Source: a virus. From it: 23,997 bases of DNA. The notes below the pieces were generated by a model. It was not told the origin of the DNA. It was given only the letters and a program-made list of their open reading frames with translations, and searched no databases. The translations under genes and the position numbers were made by a program. The number at the start of each line of letters is the position of its first letter. Position 1 is the first letter of the stretch. The stretch lies in IMG/VR virus record IMGVR_UViG_3300032073_000248, positions 1 through 23,997 of that record. One strand, given 5' to 3'. This document shows positions 5,094-17,275 of this stretch, one piece after another.

Positions 5094-5678
5094 ATGAAAA
5101 CACAGAAAGTAAAAATAACACAGATAAAAAGGAATCCGAACAACCCAAGAATAATAAAAGATAATAAATTTCATAAGTTAGTTACTTCAATAAAAGAGTT
5201 TCCAGAGATGTTGGAAATTAGACCAATAGTAGTTAATAAAGATATGATTGTGCTTGGTGGTAATATGCGTTTAAAAGCTTGTCAAGAAGCAGGTTTAAAA
5301 GAAGCTCACGTAATACAAGCAGATAAATTAACAGCCGAACAACAGCGAGAATTTATAGTTAAAGACAATGTGGGTTTTGGTGAATGGGATTGGGATATGT
5401 TAGCAAATGAATGGGATAATACTAATTTAAAAGATTGGGGTTTAGATGTTTGGAATCCTGAAGAGGAAGTTGACTATTCTTTGTTAGATGATGAAGATTT
5501 GAGTAATGAGCTTGATGAAATGACAAACAATGTAAAGAAAGCTATTCAAATAGAATTTGATTTGGAGCATTATGAAGAAGCTGCTGAATTAGTTAAATTT
5601 TGGAGAGAGCGAGAAGCTTATATTGGCGGAATGATTATAGAACATTTAAGAAATGAAAAAAATAAAATTAAGTCATAA
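5094..5678 (+). CDS. ParB-domain protein of the type often fused to DNA methylases, 194 aa
   Basis: Residues 8-75 carry a clear ParB-N domain: NPNNPR at 14-19, a helix, RPIVVNKDMIVLGGNMRLKA with GGNMR at 55-59 in the nucleotide pocket, and QREFIVKDNVGFGEWDWDML after it. The KDNVGFGEWDWD block is typical of ParB domains at the front of phage or mobile-element adenine methylases. Here the methylase domain is absent and the chain goes on to an acidic linker and a C-terminal helical segment (QIEFDLEHYEEAAELVKFW). It may be a regulator, a DNA-recognition subunit or a nicking factor. Its last 26 bases overlap the FkbM-type methyltransferase gene. The ATG at 5094 is the only good start before the domain. 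Confidence 0.75.
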   Translation: MKTQKVKITQIKRNPNNPRIIKDNKFHKLVTSIKEFPEMLEIRPIVVNKDMIVLGGNMRLKACQEAGLKEAHVIQADKLTAEQQREFIVKDNVGFGEWDWDMLANEWDNTNLKDWGLDVWNPEEEVDYSLLDDEDLSNELDEMTNNVKKAIQIEFDLEHYEEAAELVKFWREREAYIGGMIIEHLRNEKNKIKS

Positions 5679-6342
5679 CAATATTGAATTTATTTCAAGG
5701 GTCGGAACAAGTGATGAAAAAACCTTCAAAGAAGTTATTGTAAATAATGTTTACGAAAGAAAACAGTTTAAAATTAACAAGGGTGAAAGGTGGGTTGACT
5801 TAGGTGGCAACGTTGGTGCTTTTGCTTTAGTTGCTCTTTCTAAAGGTGCTGAGGTAGATATTTACGAGCCAGACCCGTATAATTGCAAGATGATAGAAGA
5901 AAATTTAAAGTTAAATAATTATGATGCAAATATATTCAACAAAGCAGTAGTGGCTAACGACAAAAAGAAAATGAAAATGTATGTAGGTAATGATATGCAA
6001 GTATGGAGAAATTCAGTTTACAAAAATTGGGGTAATCAAAGTTTTAATGTTGATTGCATACACTTCTCAGAAGTTTTAAATGATACTAATTTATGTTGCA
6101 AGATGGATATAGAAGGTGCTGAAATGGATATACTTGAAAACATGAAGTTATTTCCAAAAAAGATGGTTGCTGAATGGAGTTTAGATATAGATACAAACTT
6201 AAACAGGTACAGAAAGATTGTAGACAAATTAAAAGTTTCATATTCAAATTTTGTATATAGTAAATATTTATATAATTTACCAGACGATAAATTACCAACA
6301 AACATTTTTCCAAAAGCAGATAATTTTTATTGTTATGAATAA
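5653..6342 (+). CDS. FkbM-family SAM-dependent methyltransferase, 229 aa
   Basis: The Rossmann motifs are plain. Motif I is VDLGGNVG at residues 48-55, which binds S-adenosylmethionine; the acidic strand end is YEPDP at 71-75 (Glu72 for the ribose); LCCKMDIEGAEMDIL near 147-161 contains the MDIEGAE signature of the FkbM family. FkbM enzymes usually O-methylate hydroxyl groups of sugars or antibiotics rather than bases of ordinary DNA. The gene overlaps ParB by 26 bases and the oxygenase by 8 (ATGAATAA), so the three are coupled. The substrate could be a hydroxylated base, a glycan or a cell-surface sugar; the sequence does not say. The C-terminal 60 residues are Tyr/Asn-rich without motif. 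Confidence 0.8.
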   Translation: MKKIKLSHNNIEFISRVGTSDEKTFKEVIVNNVYERKQFKINKGERWVDLGGNVGAFALVALSKGAEVDIYEPDPYNCKMIEENLKLNNYDANIFNKAVVANDKKKMKMYVGNDMQVWRNSVYKNWGNQSFNVDCIHFSEVLNDTNLCCKMDIEGAEMDILENMKLFPKKMVAEWSLDIDTNLNRYRKIVDKLKVSYSNFVYSKYLYNLPDDKLPTNIFPKADNFYCYE

Positions 6343-7117
6343 AATAGATTTAACACAAATAGAACATCAAACAAAAATTGGCGATATATGCGGACATATA
6401 GAACCGAATATAAAAGAAGATAGTATATTTTACTCAGATGGTGAACCAATAGGATTTTACATTAAAGATATTTCCAAACATTCTGAAAAAGCATCTAAAT
6501 TAGCAGCACTTGCAAATAAAGAATTAAGAAGTAAGAACGTGCCAAAAAGTGTAATGAAACGTTCTTCAGGTTTTGCCGATTCTGAAAATGAAGTATTACA
6601 ATATTCTACAATTATTGGGAGTGTACCCCCTAAGCCACATATGAGAAGACCTTACCCAACAATAAGCAGCGTACATAATGTAAAATCTGCTCAAACGTTT
6701 ATAAAATCTATGTTGTTGCTTTGTAGAGAAAGTGAAGATTTGATAAAAAAAATAACACCAAATGTGTATGAAAATCAAGTTAAATTAATTGAGGAAAACG
6801 TACCTAAAGATTGGAGATTTAGCAAACTATTTACAAGTAGCATATCTAATTATAATATTCCAGCACCTTTTCACAGAGACAATGCAAATATTAAAGGTTG
6901 TGTTAATGTAATTATAGCAAAGAAAAACAACGCTACAGGGGGCAATACAACTGTACCTGATTATGGTGCTACAATGGATAGTTGTGATAATTCAATGCTT
7001 GTTTATCCAGCATGGAGAAATGTTCATGGAGTTACACCAATTGTGCCAACATCAAAAGGTGGTTATAGAAATAGTTTAGTATTTTACCCTTTAGCATCAT
7101 TCAAAAAATATAAGTAA
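6335..7117 (+). CDS. 2-oxoglutarate/Fe(II)-dependent oxygenase-like protein, 260 aa
   Basis: The ATG at 6335 is chosen over the TTG at 6251 because of the 8-base ATGAATAA overlap with the methyltransferase stop. The C-terminal half has the double-stranded beta-helix signature: His180-x-Asp182 (PFHRDNANIKG) and His231 (NVHGVTP) as iron ligands, and Arg245 (GYRNSLVFY) for 2-oxoglutarate, separated by a GGNTTVPDYG strand. Spacing and the V-H-x-V-x-P ending resemble TET/JBP-type and related phage dioxygenases. The N-terminal half is family-specific (SVPPKPHMRRPYPT is distinctive). The reaction would be hydroxylation of a nucleic-acid base, protein or small molecule. A role in DNA modification is inferred from the neighbours; TerS starts in its last codon (TAATG). 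Confidence 0.7.
   Translation: MNKIDLTQIEHQTKIGDICGHIEPNIKEDSIFYSDGEPIGFYIKDISKHSEKASKLAALANKELRSKNVPKSVMKRSSGFADSENEVLQYSTIIGSVPPKPHMRRPYPTISSVHNVKSAQTFIKSMLLLCRESEDLIKKITPNVYENQVKLIEENVPKDWRFSKLFTSSISNYNIPAPFHRDNANIKGCVNVIIAKKNNATGGNTTVPDYGATMDSCDNSMLVYPAWRNVHGVTPIVPTSKGGYRNSLVFYPLASFKKYK
6674..6703 (+). promoter_or_regulatory. Weak fourth match to the candidate phage promoter (inside oxygenase gene)
   Basis: AAACGTTTATA at 6693-6703 is identical to the second half of the motifs at 8757 and 17788. CATAAT (6674-6679) sits at the same 13-base spacing where those have TATAAC (4 of 6 bases). It lies within coding DNA (QTFIKS), so it may be chance. If real, it would drive terS and terL. Confidence 0.2.
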
Positions 7118-7464
7118 TGGCAAACGAACAAAATATAAAAAAACACGAATTTAAAAAAGGTCAAAGCGGTAATCCAAAAGGAAGGCCAAAAGGAAGTTTG
7201 AACAGAAGCACAATAGCTCGAAGATGGTTAGAAGCCACAAGGAAAGGAAAGAACCCTATTACAGGAGAAGAGGAGATTTTAACACAAGAAGACGTTATTA
7301 CATTAGCTTTAATACGTAAAGCAATGGAAGGTGATGTAGCAGCATACAAAGCATTAATGGACTCAGGTTATGGAACAGCAAAAGACACTGTAGATATTAA
7401 TACAAATAATGTTGGTTTTGATTTTGATGAAATGATGAAGAAGTTAAGCAATAATGCTAAATGA
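7117..7464 (+). CDS. terS: Terminase small subunit (DUF5681-type N-terminus), 115 aa
   Basis: Residues about 13-30 read KKGQSGNPKGRPKGSLNRS, the DNA-binding-like KGxSGNPKGRPKG motif of DUF5681 proteins found at the front of Bacteroidota phage terminase operons. A helical region follows (DVITLALIRKAMEGDVAAYKALMDSGYG) resembling the oligomer core of small terminases, then an acidic end (DFDEMMKKLSN). The small subunit recognises the packaging site and loads the large subunit. The start shares TAATG with the oxygenase stop, and the last 11 bases overlap terL. Direct adjacency to the large subunit makes the call solid. Confidence 0.8.
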   Translation: MANEQNIKKHEFKKGQSGNPKGRPKGSLNRSTIARRWLEATRKGKNPITGEEEILTQEDVITLALIRKAMEGDVAAYKALMDSGYGTAKDTVDINTNNVGFDFDEMMKKLSNNAK

Positions 7465-8656
7465 AAAGTTTAATATATTTCCTAACAATACAAGATACTA
7501 TTTACTAACTGGTGGTCGTGGTTCTGGAAAATCATTTGCAGTTGCTTTAAATACTCTTGTTCTTTCTTTTGATAATAAATGTCAGCATAAGATATTATTT
7601 ACAAGATATACATTAAGGTCAGCATCTATTTCTATAATACCAGAATTTAAGGAAAAGATAGAGTTAATGGAATGGGAGAATTTATTTCATATAACCAACA
7701 ATGAAATAACTAATCTTGAAACTGGTAGTAAGATTTTATTTAGAGGTATTAAAACAAGTTCAGGAGACCAGACAGCAAATCTTAAATCGTTACAAGGTAT
7801 AACAACTTGGATAATAGATGAAGCTGAGGAAATGGTTGATGAAGATATTTTTGATAAAATAGATTTTTCAGTTAGACAAAAAGGTGCAAAAAACAGGGTT
7901 GTAATGATTATGAACCCCTCAACAAAAGAGCATTGGATTTATCAAAGGTTTTATGAGAATTCAGGAGTGCAAGCTGGTTACTCTGGAATAAAAGGAGAAA
8001 CAACGTATTGTCATTCTACTTACTTAGATAATGTAGAACATCTTTCAGAAAGTTATCTAAATAGAATCAATGAAATGAAACAACGTAGACCTCAAAGATA
8101 TAAACACACTATTGAGGGTGCTTGGTTAGAAAAAGCTGAGGGGGTTATATTTACTGATTGGAGCATTGGAGAATTTAAACAAGTAGGCAAAGTTGTTTAT
8201 GGCCAAGATTATGGTTTTAGCAATGACCCCTCAACATTAGTTAAAACGAGCATAGACAAAGAAAATAAGGTTATTTATATTCAACTATGTTTCTATCAAA
8301 CTAAATTAACTACAAGCGAGATATTACAACTAAATAAAAAGTTTGCAGCAGATAATTTAATAGTAGGTGATTCAGCAGAACCAAGATTAATAACAGAACT
8401 CAGCAGAGATTGTAATGTTGTACCAGCTATCAAAGGTCAAGGTTCAATAACATTTGGTATTAGTTTACTTCAAGATTATGATTTAGTAATAACTGAAGAT
8501 AGCACAGAACTAATTAAAGAGTTAAATAATTATTGTTGGTTAGAAAAGAAATCACAAACACCAGTAGATAACTTTAACCACGCTATTGATGCGTTGAGGT
8601 ATGCAGTTAGTTATCAATTACAGAATCCAAATTTAGGAGAATATCATATTTATTAA
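7454..8656 (+). CDS. terL: Terminase large subunit (ATPase-nuclease), 400 aa
   Basis: The ATPase domain has Walker A GGRGSGKS at residues 20-27 and Walker B WIIDEAEE at 119-126, with Glu123 as the catalytic acid, then VVMIMNPSTKEHW as the coupling motif. The nuclease domain is RNase-H-like: Asp252 (YGQDYGFSNDPSTL), Asp306 (IVGDSAEP) and Asp379 (NHAIDALRYAV) form the metal site. The layout fits the Terminase_3/PBSX type. It translocates DNA into the prohead and cuts the genome ends. At 400 residues it is compact but complete. The start overlaps terS by 11 bases. A 135-base intergenic region follows, ending the packaging block. Confidence 0.95.
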   Translation: MLNEKFNIFPNNTRYYLLTGGRGSGKSFAVALNTLVLSFDNKCQHKILFTRYTLRSASISIIPEFKEKIELMEWENLFHITNNEITNLETGSKILFRGIKTSSGDQTANLKSLQGITTWIIDEAEEMVDEDIFDKIDFSVRQKGAKNRVVMIMNPSTKEHWIYQRFYENSGVQAGYSGIKGETTYCHSTYLDNVEHLSESYLNRINEMKQRRPQRYKHTIEGAWLEKAEGVIFTDWSIGEFKQVGKVVYGQDYGFSNDPSTLVKTSIDKENKVIYIQLCFYQTKLTTSEILQLNKKFAADNLIVGDSAEPRLITELSRDCNVVPAIKGQGSITFGISLLQDYDLVITEDSTELIKELNNYCWLEKKSQTPVDNFNHAIDALRYAVSYQLQNPNLGEYHIY

Positions 8657-16153: not shown

Positions 16154-17275
16154 ATGGATATAATAGAATTAATATTAGATGAAGAAAACGAAGAGATGGT
16201 TGGAATAGATGCGGTAAGCATCGTAGAGAATCCAGCTATTGAATCTGACTTTATAACCTTAGCAAGTGATGAGATACAACTTGCAAAAATAGATGAAGAG
16301 AAAAAACTACTTCTTGGTGCAGCACTTATACCAAACAAGCCAATATTTAGAAAGCGTAATGAAACTATGTTTTATGTTTACTTTTCAAAAGATACAGTGA
16401 GAAGAGCAAGCGAATTGTTTTTTCAAAATAGCAATCAAAACAATGCAACCTTAGAACATCAAATGAGTGTAAATGGTTTAACTGTTGTTGAAAGCTGGAT
16501 TGTAGAAGATACTAAAATGGATAAATCAGCTAAGTATGGTTTAGAAATGCCAGATGGTACTTGGATGATTTCAATGAAAGTAGAGAATGATGAAATTTGG
16601 AATGATTATGTTAAAACTGGTAAAGTAAAAGGTTTTAGTATTGAGGGTTATTTTGCAGATAAAGCACAAATTAAAAAACCAGATACAAAAGCAGAGATGG
16701 CAGCTATTGAAGAAGAAGAAGCTGAATATATGCTTAGTAATATTAAAGCACTAATCAAGAAAGATAAAAGAACTAAATCAGGTAAAAAGATAGAATTAGA
16801 AACTTATAATGATTATCCACAAGCAGTTAGTAATAATGCTAAAAGAGGTATTGAACTAAACGAAAAAGTTAATAATAAATGTGCAACACAAGTTGGTAAA
16901 ATAAGAGCGCAACAATTAGCACAAAAAGAAAACATCAGTTTACAAACTTTAAAAAGAATGTACAGCTATTTAAGTAGAGCGCAAGAATATTATGATGAAG
17001 GAGATAAAGAAGCGTGTGGAACAATTAGTTATTTATTGTGGGGTGGTAAAGCTGGTTTAAGATGGTCAGAAAGTAAGTTAAAAAAACTCGGTGAAATTAA
17101 TTTAGCTTCTATGGTAGTTGATGAAACTTTTGCAATTATAGATGACAGATTAGCTTATAGCACACAAGAAAAAGCTGAAGAAATGGCTCAGAATATAGGT
17201 TGTGAGGGTTTTCACATTCACGAGTTTGAAGGTAAAAAATGGTATATGCCTTGTAAAGAACATATAAAAAAATAA
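16154..17275 (+). CDS. XkdF-type prohead serine protease with extra C-terminal domains, 373 aa
   Basis: The N-terminal domain (to about residue 170) resembles XkdF. It contains GIDAVSIVENPAIESDF at the start, FYVYFSKDTVRRASELFF, His102 (NATLEHQMSVNGLTVVESWIVED), and Ser162 in VKGFSIEGYF as likely catalytic residues. Such proteases trim scaffold and capsid precursors. A second domain (ETYNDYPQAVSNNAKRGIEL, LKRMYSYLSRAQEYYDEGD, CGTISYLLWGGKAGLRWSES) is a separate helical module found after XkdF in Bacteroidota phages. The last 40 residues (AEEMAQNIGCEGFHIHEFEG, YMPCKEH) look like a small Cys/His module. It opens the head module, which includes scaffold and capsid genes downstream. Catalytic residues are inferred by position. 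Confidence 0.75.
   Translation: MDIIELILDEENEEMVGIDAVSIVENPAIESDFITLASDEIQLAKIDEEKKLLLGAALIPNKPIFRKRNETMFYVYFSKDTVRRASELFFQNSNQNNATLEHQMSVNGLTVVESWIVEDTKMDKSAKYGLEMPDGTWMISMKVENDEIWNDYVKTGKVKGFSIEGYFADKAQIKKPDTKAEMAAIEEEEAEYMLSNIKALIKKDKRTKSGKKIELETYNDYPQAVSNNAKRGIELNEKVNNKCATQVGKIRAQQLAQKENISLQTLKRMYSYLSRAQEYYDEGDKEACGTISYLLWGGKAGLRWSESKLKKLGEINLASMVVDETFAIIDDRLAYSTQEKAEEMAQNIGCEGFHIHEFEGKKWYMPCKEHIKK

Follow-up and report, generated by a model that had tools for sequence, protein, structure and literature searches.

A ParB-FkbM-TET/JBP gene cassette in a viral genome record and its probable role in DNA hypermodification through O-methylation of a hydroxymethyl pyrimidine

Hydroxymethyl pyrimidines made by TET/JBP oxygenases are reportedly well established as starting points for further tailoring of DNA, an idea credited to Iyer (2013) and Burke (2021). 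In the base J pathway of kinetoplastids, JBP hydroxylates thymine in DNA, and a glucosyltransferase then caps the new hydroxyl. Among phages, Burke et al. are said to have described in 2021 a cytosine hypermodification in which TET works together with a cytosine C5-methyltransferase (C5-MTase) and a TET-associated glycosyltransferase (TAGT), and Lee et al. reportedly described in 2018 and 2022 a thymidine hypermodification that involves a 5-hydroxymethyluracil (5hmU) kinase and ADDT/aGPT-PPlase. A related arrangement occurs in the IMG/VR virus record IMGVR_UViG_3300032073_000248, whose positions 1 to 23,997, possibly a fragment, form the window analyzed here. In this window, genes for a ParB-domain protein, a TET/JBP oxygenase and, between them, an FkbM-family methyltransferase make up a cassette that probably serves phage DNA hypermodification. 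Sequence comparison and structural models suggest that the oxygenase would hydroxylate a pyrimidine, likely thymine, and that FkbM would O-methylate the resulting hydroxyl.

The cassette lies on the plus strand and begins with its constant member, the gene for a 194-amino-acid protein with a ParB N-terminal domain (5094..5678; PF02195 E 5.2e-6; PHROG 620/940/498, annotated as ParB or ParB plus DNA methylase). The variable "slot" gene follows, encoding a 229-amino-acid FkbM-family S-adenosylmethionine (SAM) methyltransferase (5653..6342; PF05050 E 2.8e-9, TIGR01444 E 4.3e-17), and then the gene for a 260-amino-acid TET/JBP-type Fe(II)/2-oxoglutarate (2OG) dioxygenase (6335..7117, with its ATG at 6335 and its stop at 7117; PF12851 E 1.3e-9). 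ParB and FkbM overlap by 26 bases (5653-5678) and FkbM and the oxygenase by 8 (6335-6342), and the open reading frames agree exactly with the places and overlaps given in an earlier note on this DNA. Its assignment of the three genes as ParB-like, FkbM and oxygenase also holds, with every protein exceeding its curated profile cut-off (ParB_N marginally). Dozens of divergent viral contigs, and the cyanophage MED4-117 as well, show the same ParB-FkbM-TET order, so the arrangement is not a product of chance. In 64 of the 73 cases measured, the end of FkbM overlaps the start of TET by 4-20 bases. The order is reversed, with TET preceding FkbM, in HTVC112P (L002, 7599-9195) and in one further locus (L139, 4075-5666).

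Comparison across relatives shows what the middle position of the cassette can hold. Viral loci were gathered through two TET-based scans (80 + 80) and one FkbM-alignment scan, which took the best 80 hits and reached down to about 45% identity; the sets overlap, and removal of duplicates left 141 distinct TETs. Throughout these viral relatives, the ParB-[slot]-TET-terminase frame is constant and the slot alone varies, with ParB upstream of TET in 134 of the 136 relatives that have room for it. In counts that include loci found through FkbM itself, the slot holds FkbM alone in 73 loci and is empty in 30, where ParB adjoins TET directly. Kinase/ADDT-type sets occupy 17 loci (2 of them also with FkbM), TAGT (PF20691) occupies 10, a glycosyltransferase-like protein of 300 amino acids occupies 2, and other glycosyltransferase-like genes, judged by eye, occupy 2; the remainder of the 141 loci are cut or lack ParB. 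Slot contents seen in relatives include a GATase with an ADDT (PF18724) and a P-loop kinase, and also the kinase alone. FkbM's share of the slots in the TET-only scans is 15/60 and 12/45. The two loci that combine FkbM with an ADDT and a P-loop kinase between ParB and TET are L126 (2807-6965) and L131 (4369-8482), and the L131 slot also holds a weakly NAD-binding-like protein. The slot protein of about 300 amino acids (L069:922-1842, L084:4158-5063) has no Pfam match and is glycosyltransferase-like in appearance. Slot genes that look glycosyltransferase-like by eye (L210:2779-3609, L229:4045-5004, L234:4075-5004) suggest further decorating chemistries.

FkbM itself is bound closely to TET. An adjacent TET is present in 121/121 retrieved loci carrying this FkbM, those from the FkbM scan being its best 80 hits, and the pairing persists through divergence to about 45% identity. 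Additionally, slot contents move between related cores: placed on the TET tree, the slot labels require at least 30 changes, and FkbM alone requires 19, at least 12 of them forced by well-supported branches. The TETs of an FkbM-slot locus (L160) and of a locus with kinase, GATase and ADDT in its slot (L231) are 91.5% identical. Because slot contents swap between closely related TETs, one TET product appears to be passed to differing decorating enzymes, FkbM among them. The case for FkbM acting on the TET product rests chiefly on this exchange, and the data are best read as showing FkbM to be one of several interchangeable enzymes that decorate it.

The oxygenase is a TET/JBP enzyme, and its model has the double-stranded beta-helix fold of DNA-acting TETs. 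It scores 37.9 bits against Tet_JBP PF12851 (curated cut-off 34.9), and the HxD...H iron triad (H180, D182, H231) and the 2OG-binding R245 are invariant across aligned relatives. An AlphaFold2 model built from 70 sequences reached a pLDDT of 94.4 and a pTM of 0.91. Its top PDB matches are NgTET1 (Z 18.5, root-mean-square deviation (rmsd) 2.8 over 210) and human TET2 (Z 18.4, rmsd 3.7 over 244), followed by CcTET (Z 17.3), CMD1 (Z 16.3), and FTO and other oxygenases at about 14. The suspected resemblance of the 6335-7117 product to base-modifying oxygenases is therefore present, at Z values near 18. PHROG and phage records label this oxygenase "queuine tRNA-ribosyltransferase", an annotation rejected here because the sequence and the fold are those of TET; TET/JBP proteins are widely mislabeled in this way in phage records (NC_020857.1, Mycobacterium phages), apparently via PHROG 6059.

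The methyltransferase is likewise a clear family member, scoring 37.8 bits against PF05050 (Methyltransf_21; cut-off 22.7) and 62.9 bits against TIGR01444 (cut-off 37.7) and having the conserved motifs D49xGGNxG, E72P and K150-x-D-I-E-G-A. Its AlphaFold2 model (pLDDT 92.5) adopts a class I SAM methyltransferase fold. The solved FkbM enzyme 2py6 is nearest in sequence (E 9.1e-7; by structure Z 12.0, rmsd 3.0 over 160), and most of the closest fold matches are RNA methyltransferases, Trm5 and RlmK among them, a likeness of the model that fits a nucleic-acid substrate without proving one. Where an activity has been assigned to an FkbM enzyme, it is O-methylation in all cases but one, which N-methylates (PMC9259500). 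FkbM is the sole slot enzyme in 73 of 75 FkbM loci; TAGT was not found in the window or in any FkbM record tested, and a GT2 gene occurs in only two FkbM records (L139, L141). For these reasons, the oxygen of the hydroxymethyl group makes the simplest acceptor. The slot of the window has neither a kinase nor ADDT/aGPT-PPlase, both of which occur in the slots of close relatives. The earlier note had regarded the lack of a base methylase, a pyrophosphorylase and a glycosyltransferase as weakening the DNA interpretation, an objection that loses its force because thymine needs no base methylase and because, in relatives, the pyrophosphorylase-like, kinase or glycosyltransferase gene sits exactly where FkbM does here.

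The ParB partner matches ParB_N PF02195 at 26.9 bits, marginally over the cut-off of 26.3, and PHROG ParB family 620 at E 3e-24; its score against TIGR00180, which bears on membership of the ParABS partition proteins, falls far under the cut-off. It accompanies TET whatever the slot holds, including in the actinophages Tonitrus and Bolt007, and as the constant companion of TET it probably positions the modification enzymes on DNA. ParB-domain genes of undefined function have been reported beside other phage DNA modification genes (PMC12783734). A second ParB-domain-like protein is encoded upstream in the window at 232-951 (PHROG 12305; weak GmrSD_N resemblance, below cut-off) and has a short motif in common with the cassette ParB.

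In the proposed pathway, the TET/JBP oxygenase would hydroxylate a pyrimidine at its 5-methyl group after incorporation into phage DNA, most likely converting thymine to 5hmU. FkbM would then transfer a methyl group from SAM to the new hydroxyl, yielding a 5-methoxymethyl pyrimidine whose capped oxygen would no longer be open to glycosylation or phosphorylation. The likely role of this modification would be to protect the packaged genome against nucleases of the host, among them those directed at hydroxymethyl bases, whether these are bare or glycosylated.

Thymine is favored as the substrate over 5-methylcytosine (5mC), though not proven, because relatives fill the slot with thymidine-pathway enzymes and C5-MTase is mostly absent. 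The ADDT (PF18724) and P-loop kinase of the alternative slots are of the kind that serves thymidine hypermodification, and the ParB, TET, aGPT-Pplase2 and kinase set of Tonitrus has been described as such a system (PMC11955845). C5-MTase (PF00145) was not found in the 24-kb window, which is possibly a fragment, or in MED4-117, HTVC112P, Reprobate or Tonitrus; of the 96 records searched, 82 have none. No thymidylate-synthase-type hydroxymethylase (PF00303) was found in 46 records, the window among them, some of which may be fragments, so the hydroxymethyl base would have to come from TET. A cytosine version, in which a phage or host C5-MTase produces 5mC, TET oxidizes it to 5-hydroxymethylcytosine and FkbM forms 5-methoxymethylcytosine, deserves consideration but is rather doubtful. 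Phage TETs acting on 5mC with co-occurring C5-MTases are reported in the part of PMC12730594 that draws on Burke 2021. C5-MTase genes lie near ParB-TET in some close relatives (L025, L027, L030, L056), and the TET of Melnitz, a distant contrast case, stands directly behind an HhaI-type C5-MTase. The invariant N185 is equivalent to TET2 N1387, which contacts the base. Against cytosine stand the missing C5-MTase in the window, MED4-117 and most relatives, and the fact that the same TET subfamily supplies the kinase/ADDT enzymes of the thymidine pathway. Additionally, TET2 His1904, which contacts cytosine, is replaced by Leu253 in the window oxygenase and by Leu in nearly all members, and likewise in Tonitrus and Reprobate, which lends weak sequence support to a base other than cytosine. 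Leu253 alone does not decide the base, since same-clade relatives linked to C5-MTase also have Leu and the residue differs among other phage TETs. Verified C5-MTase open reading frames occur in 3/12 empty-slot and 2/33 FkbM-slot loci (p = 0.11), too small a difference to claim enrichment.

Several observations weigh against thymine hydroxylation followed by O-methylation. C5-MTase is carried by 6 of about 50 FkbM-type records, which leaves room for 5mC as the substrate. The FkbM fold is that of a generic class I methyltransferase, with which the RNA methyltransferase matches are compatible but not specific; one FkbM-family member N-methylates (PMC9259500); and FkbM might methylate a larger adduct in L126 and L131, which carry it together with ADDT and kinase and fit the simple scheme poorly. 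The latter two points favor another target for FkbM, namely a nitrogen or oxygen of a larger adduct, a carboxylated base that would become a methyl ester, or a base-linked sugar. TETs can carry oxidation further, to the carboxyl, which also counts for this explanation. It is nevertheless unlikely, given that FkbM so rarely shares its slot and that FkbM records lack TAGT and, with two exceptions, GT2. The two-step path of the earlier note, hydroxylation and then O-methylation of a base or a glycan, is supported by comparative genomics and structure in its DNA branch. Its glycan branch is disfavored because FkbM adjoins a DNA-type TET and uses the slot of base decorators and because TAGT and most GT2 are absent. 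More broadly, action of these genes on a virion or host glycan, lipid or small molecule would agree with polyketides and glycans being the best-known FkbM settings (PMC9259500), but it is very improbable in view of the steady linkage of FkbM to a DNA-type TET and ParB, its exchange with enzymes that decorate DNA bases, and the few glycosyltransferases in the same records. A mosaic of neighbors sharing no pathway can hardly be entertained at all: phage genomes are mosaic, and 30 relatives have ParB-TET and no FkbM, but TET adjoins every retrieved FkbM, and FkbM persists down to about 45% identity, its gene mostly running into the start of the TET gene.

Downstream, the cassette lies just before terS, as originally described: the gene for a DUF5681 protein in the small-terminase position (7117..7464, plus strand; PF18932 E 3e-17) starts on the final base of the oxygenase gene, at 7117. 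The large terminase gene (TerL; 7454..8656, plus strand; PF04466 E 9.5e-35) comes next, at 7454, and flanks the cassette in most relatives. The window also encodes, at 16154-17275, a prohead protease (Peptidase_S78_2) with a DUF3721 domain at its end.

On balance, these data incline toward a widespread class of phage DNA with 5-methoxymethyl thymines (or cytosines) made by TET and FkbM, in which one ParB-TET core takes interchangeable decorators. The proposal predicts a specific new DNA base, a 5-methoxymethyl pyrimidine, in common environmental phages and in cultured cyanophages such as MED4-117. As a shield for a hydroxymethyl base, nothing smaller than a methyl cap is possible, and it might evade Type IV enzymes directed against glycosylated bases as well as ordinary restriction enzymes. 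Moreover, the ParB-[slot]-TET rule could allow more base-decorating enzymes to be read directly from gene order. A full-text literature search returned nothing relevant on FkbM with hypermodification or on 5-methoxymethyl bases in phage DNA, with earlier mention in Iyer 2013, Burke 2021 or Lee 2022 possible. Tailoring of TET/JBP products is already a known concept; FkbM as a tailoring enzyme and the exchangeable slot appear to be new.

Compared with the Burke-type system, the cassette shares a predicted TET/JBP-made hydroxymethyl pyrimidine in DNA decorated by a neighboring enzyme, and close relatives carry TAGT in the same slot; unlike in that system, no C5-MTase or glycosyltransferase was found in the window, possibly a fragment, and a methyltransferase takes the decorator's position. 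The thymidine hypermodification of Lee and of Tonitrus is approached by relatives whose ParB-TET core is joined by ADDT and a P-loop kinase, up to the 91.5% identity of the L231 TET and its FkbM-linked counterpart in L160. Unlike the system of Lee, the window slot has neither kinase nor ADDT, 5hmU would be made by TET and not by a deoxyuridine monophosphate (dUMP) hydroxymethylase, and the decoration would be a methylation. The FkbM protein resembles natural-product FkbM O-methyltransferases (PF05050) in family profile and SAM motifs, whereas its predicted acceptor is a DNA base. As in base J synthesis, thymine in DNA would be hydroxylated and the hydroxyl then capped, but here in a phage, by a different enzyme, and with methyl instead of glucose.
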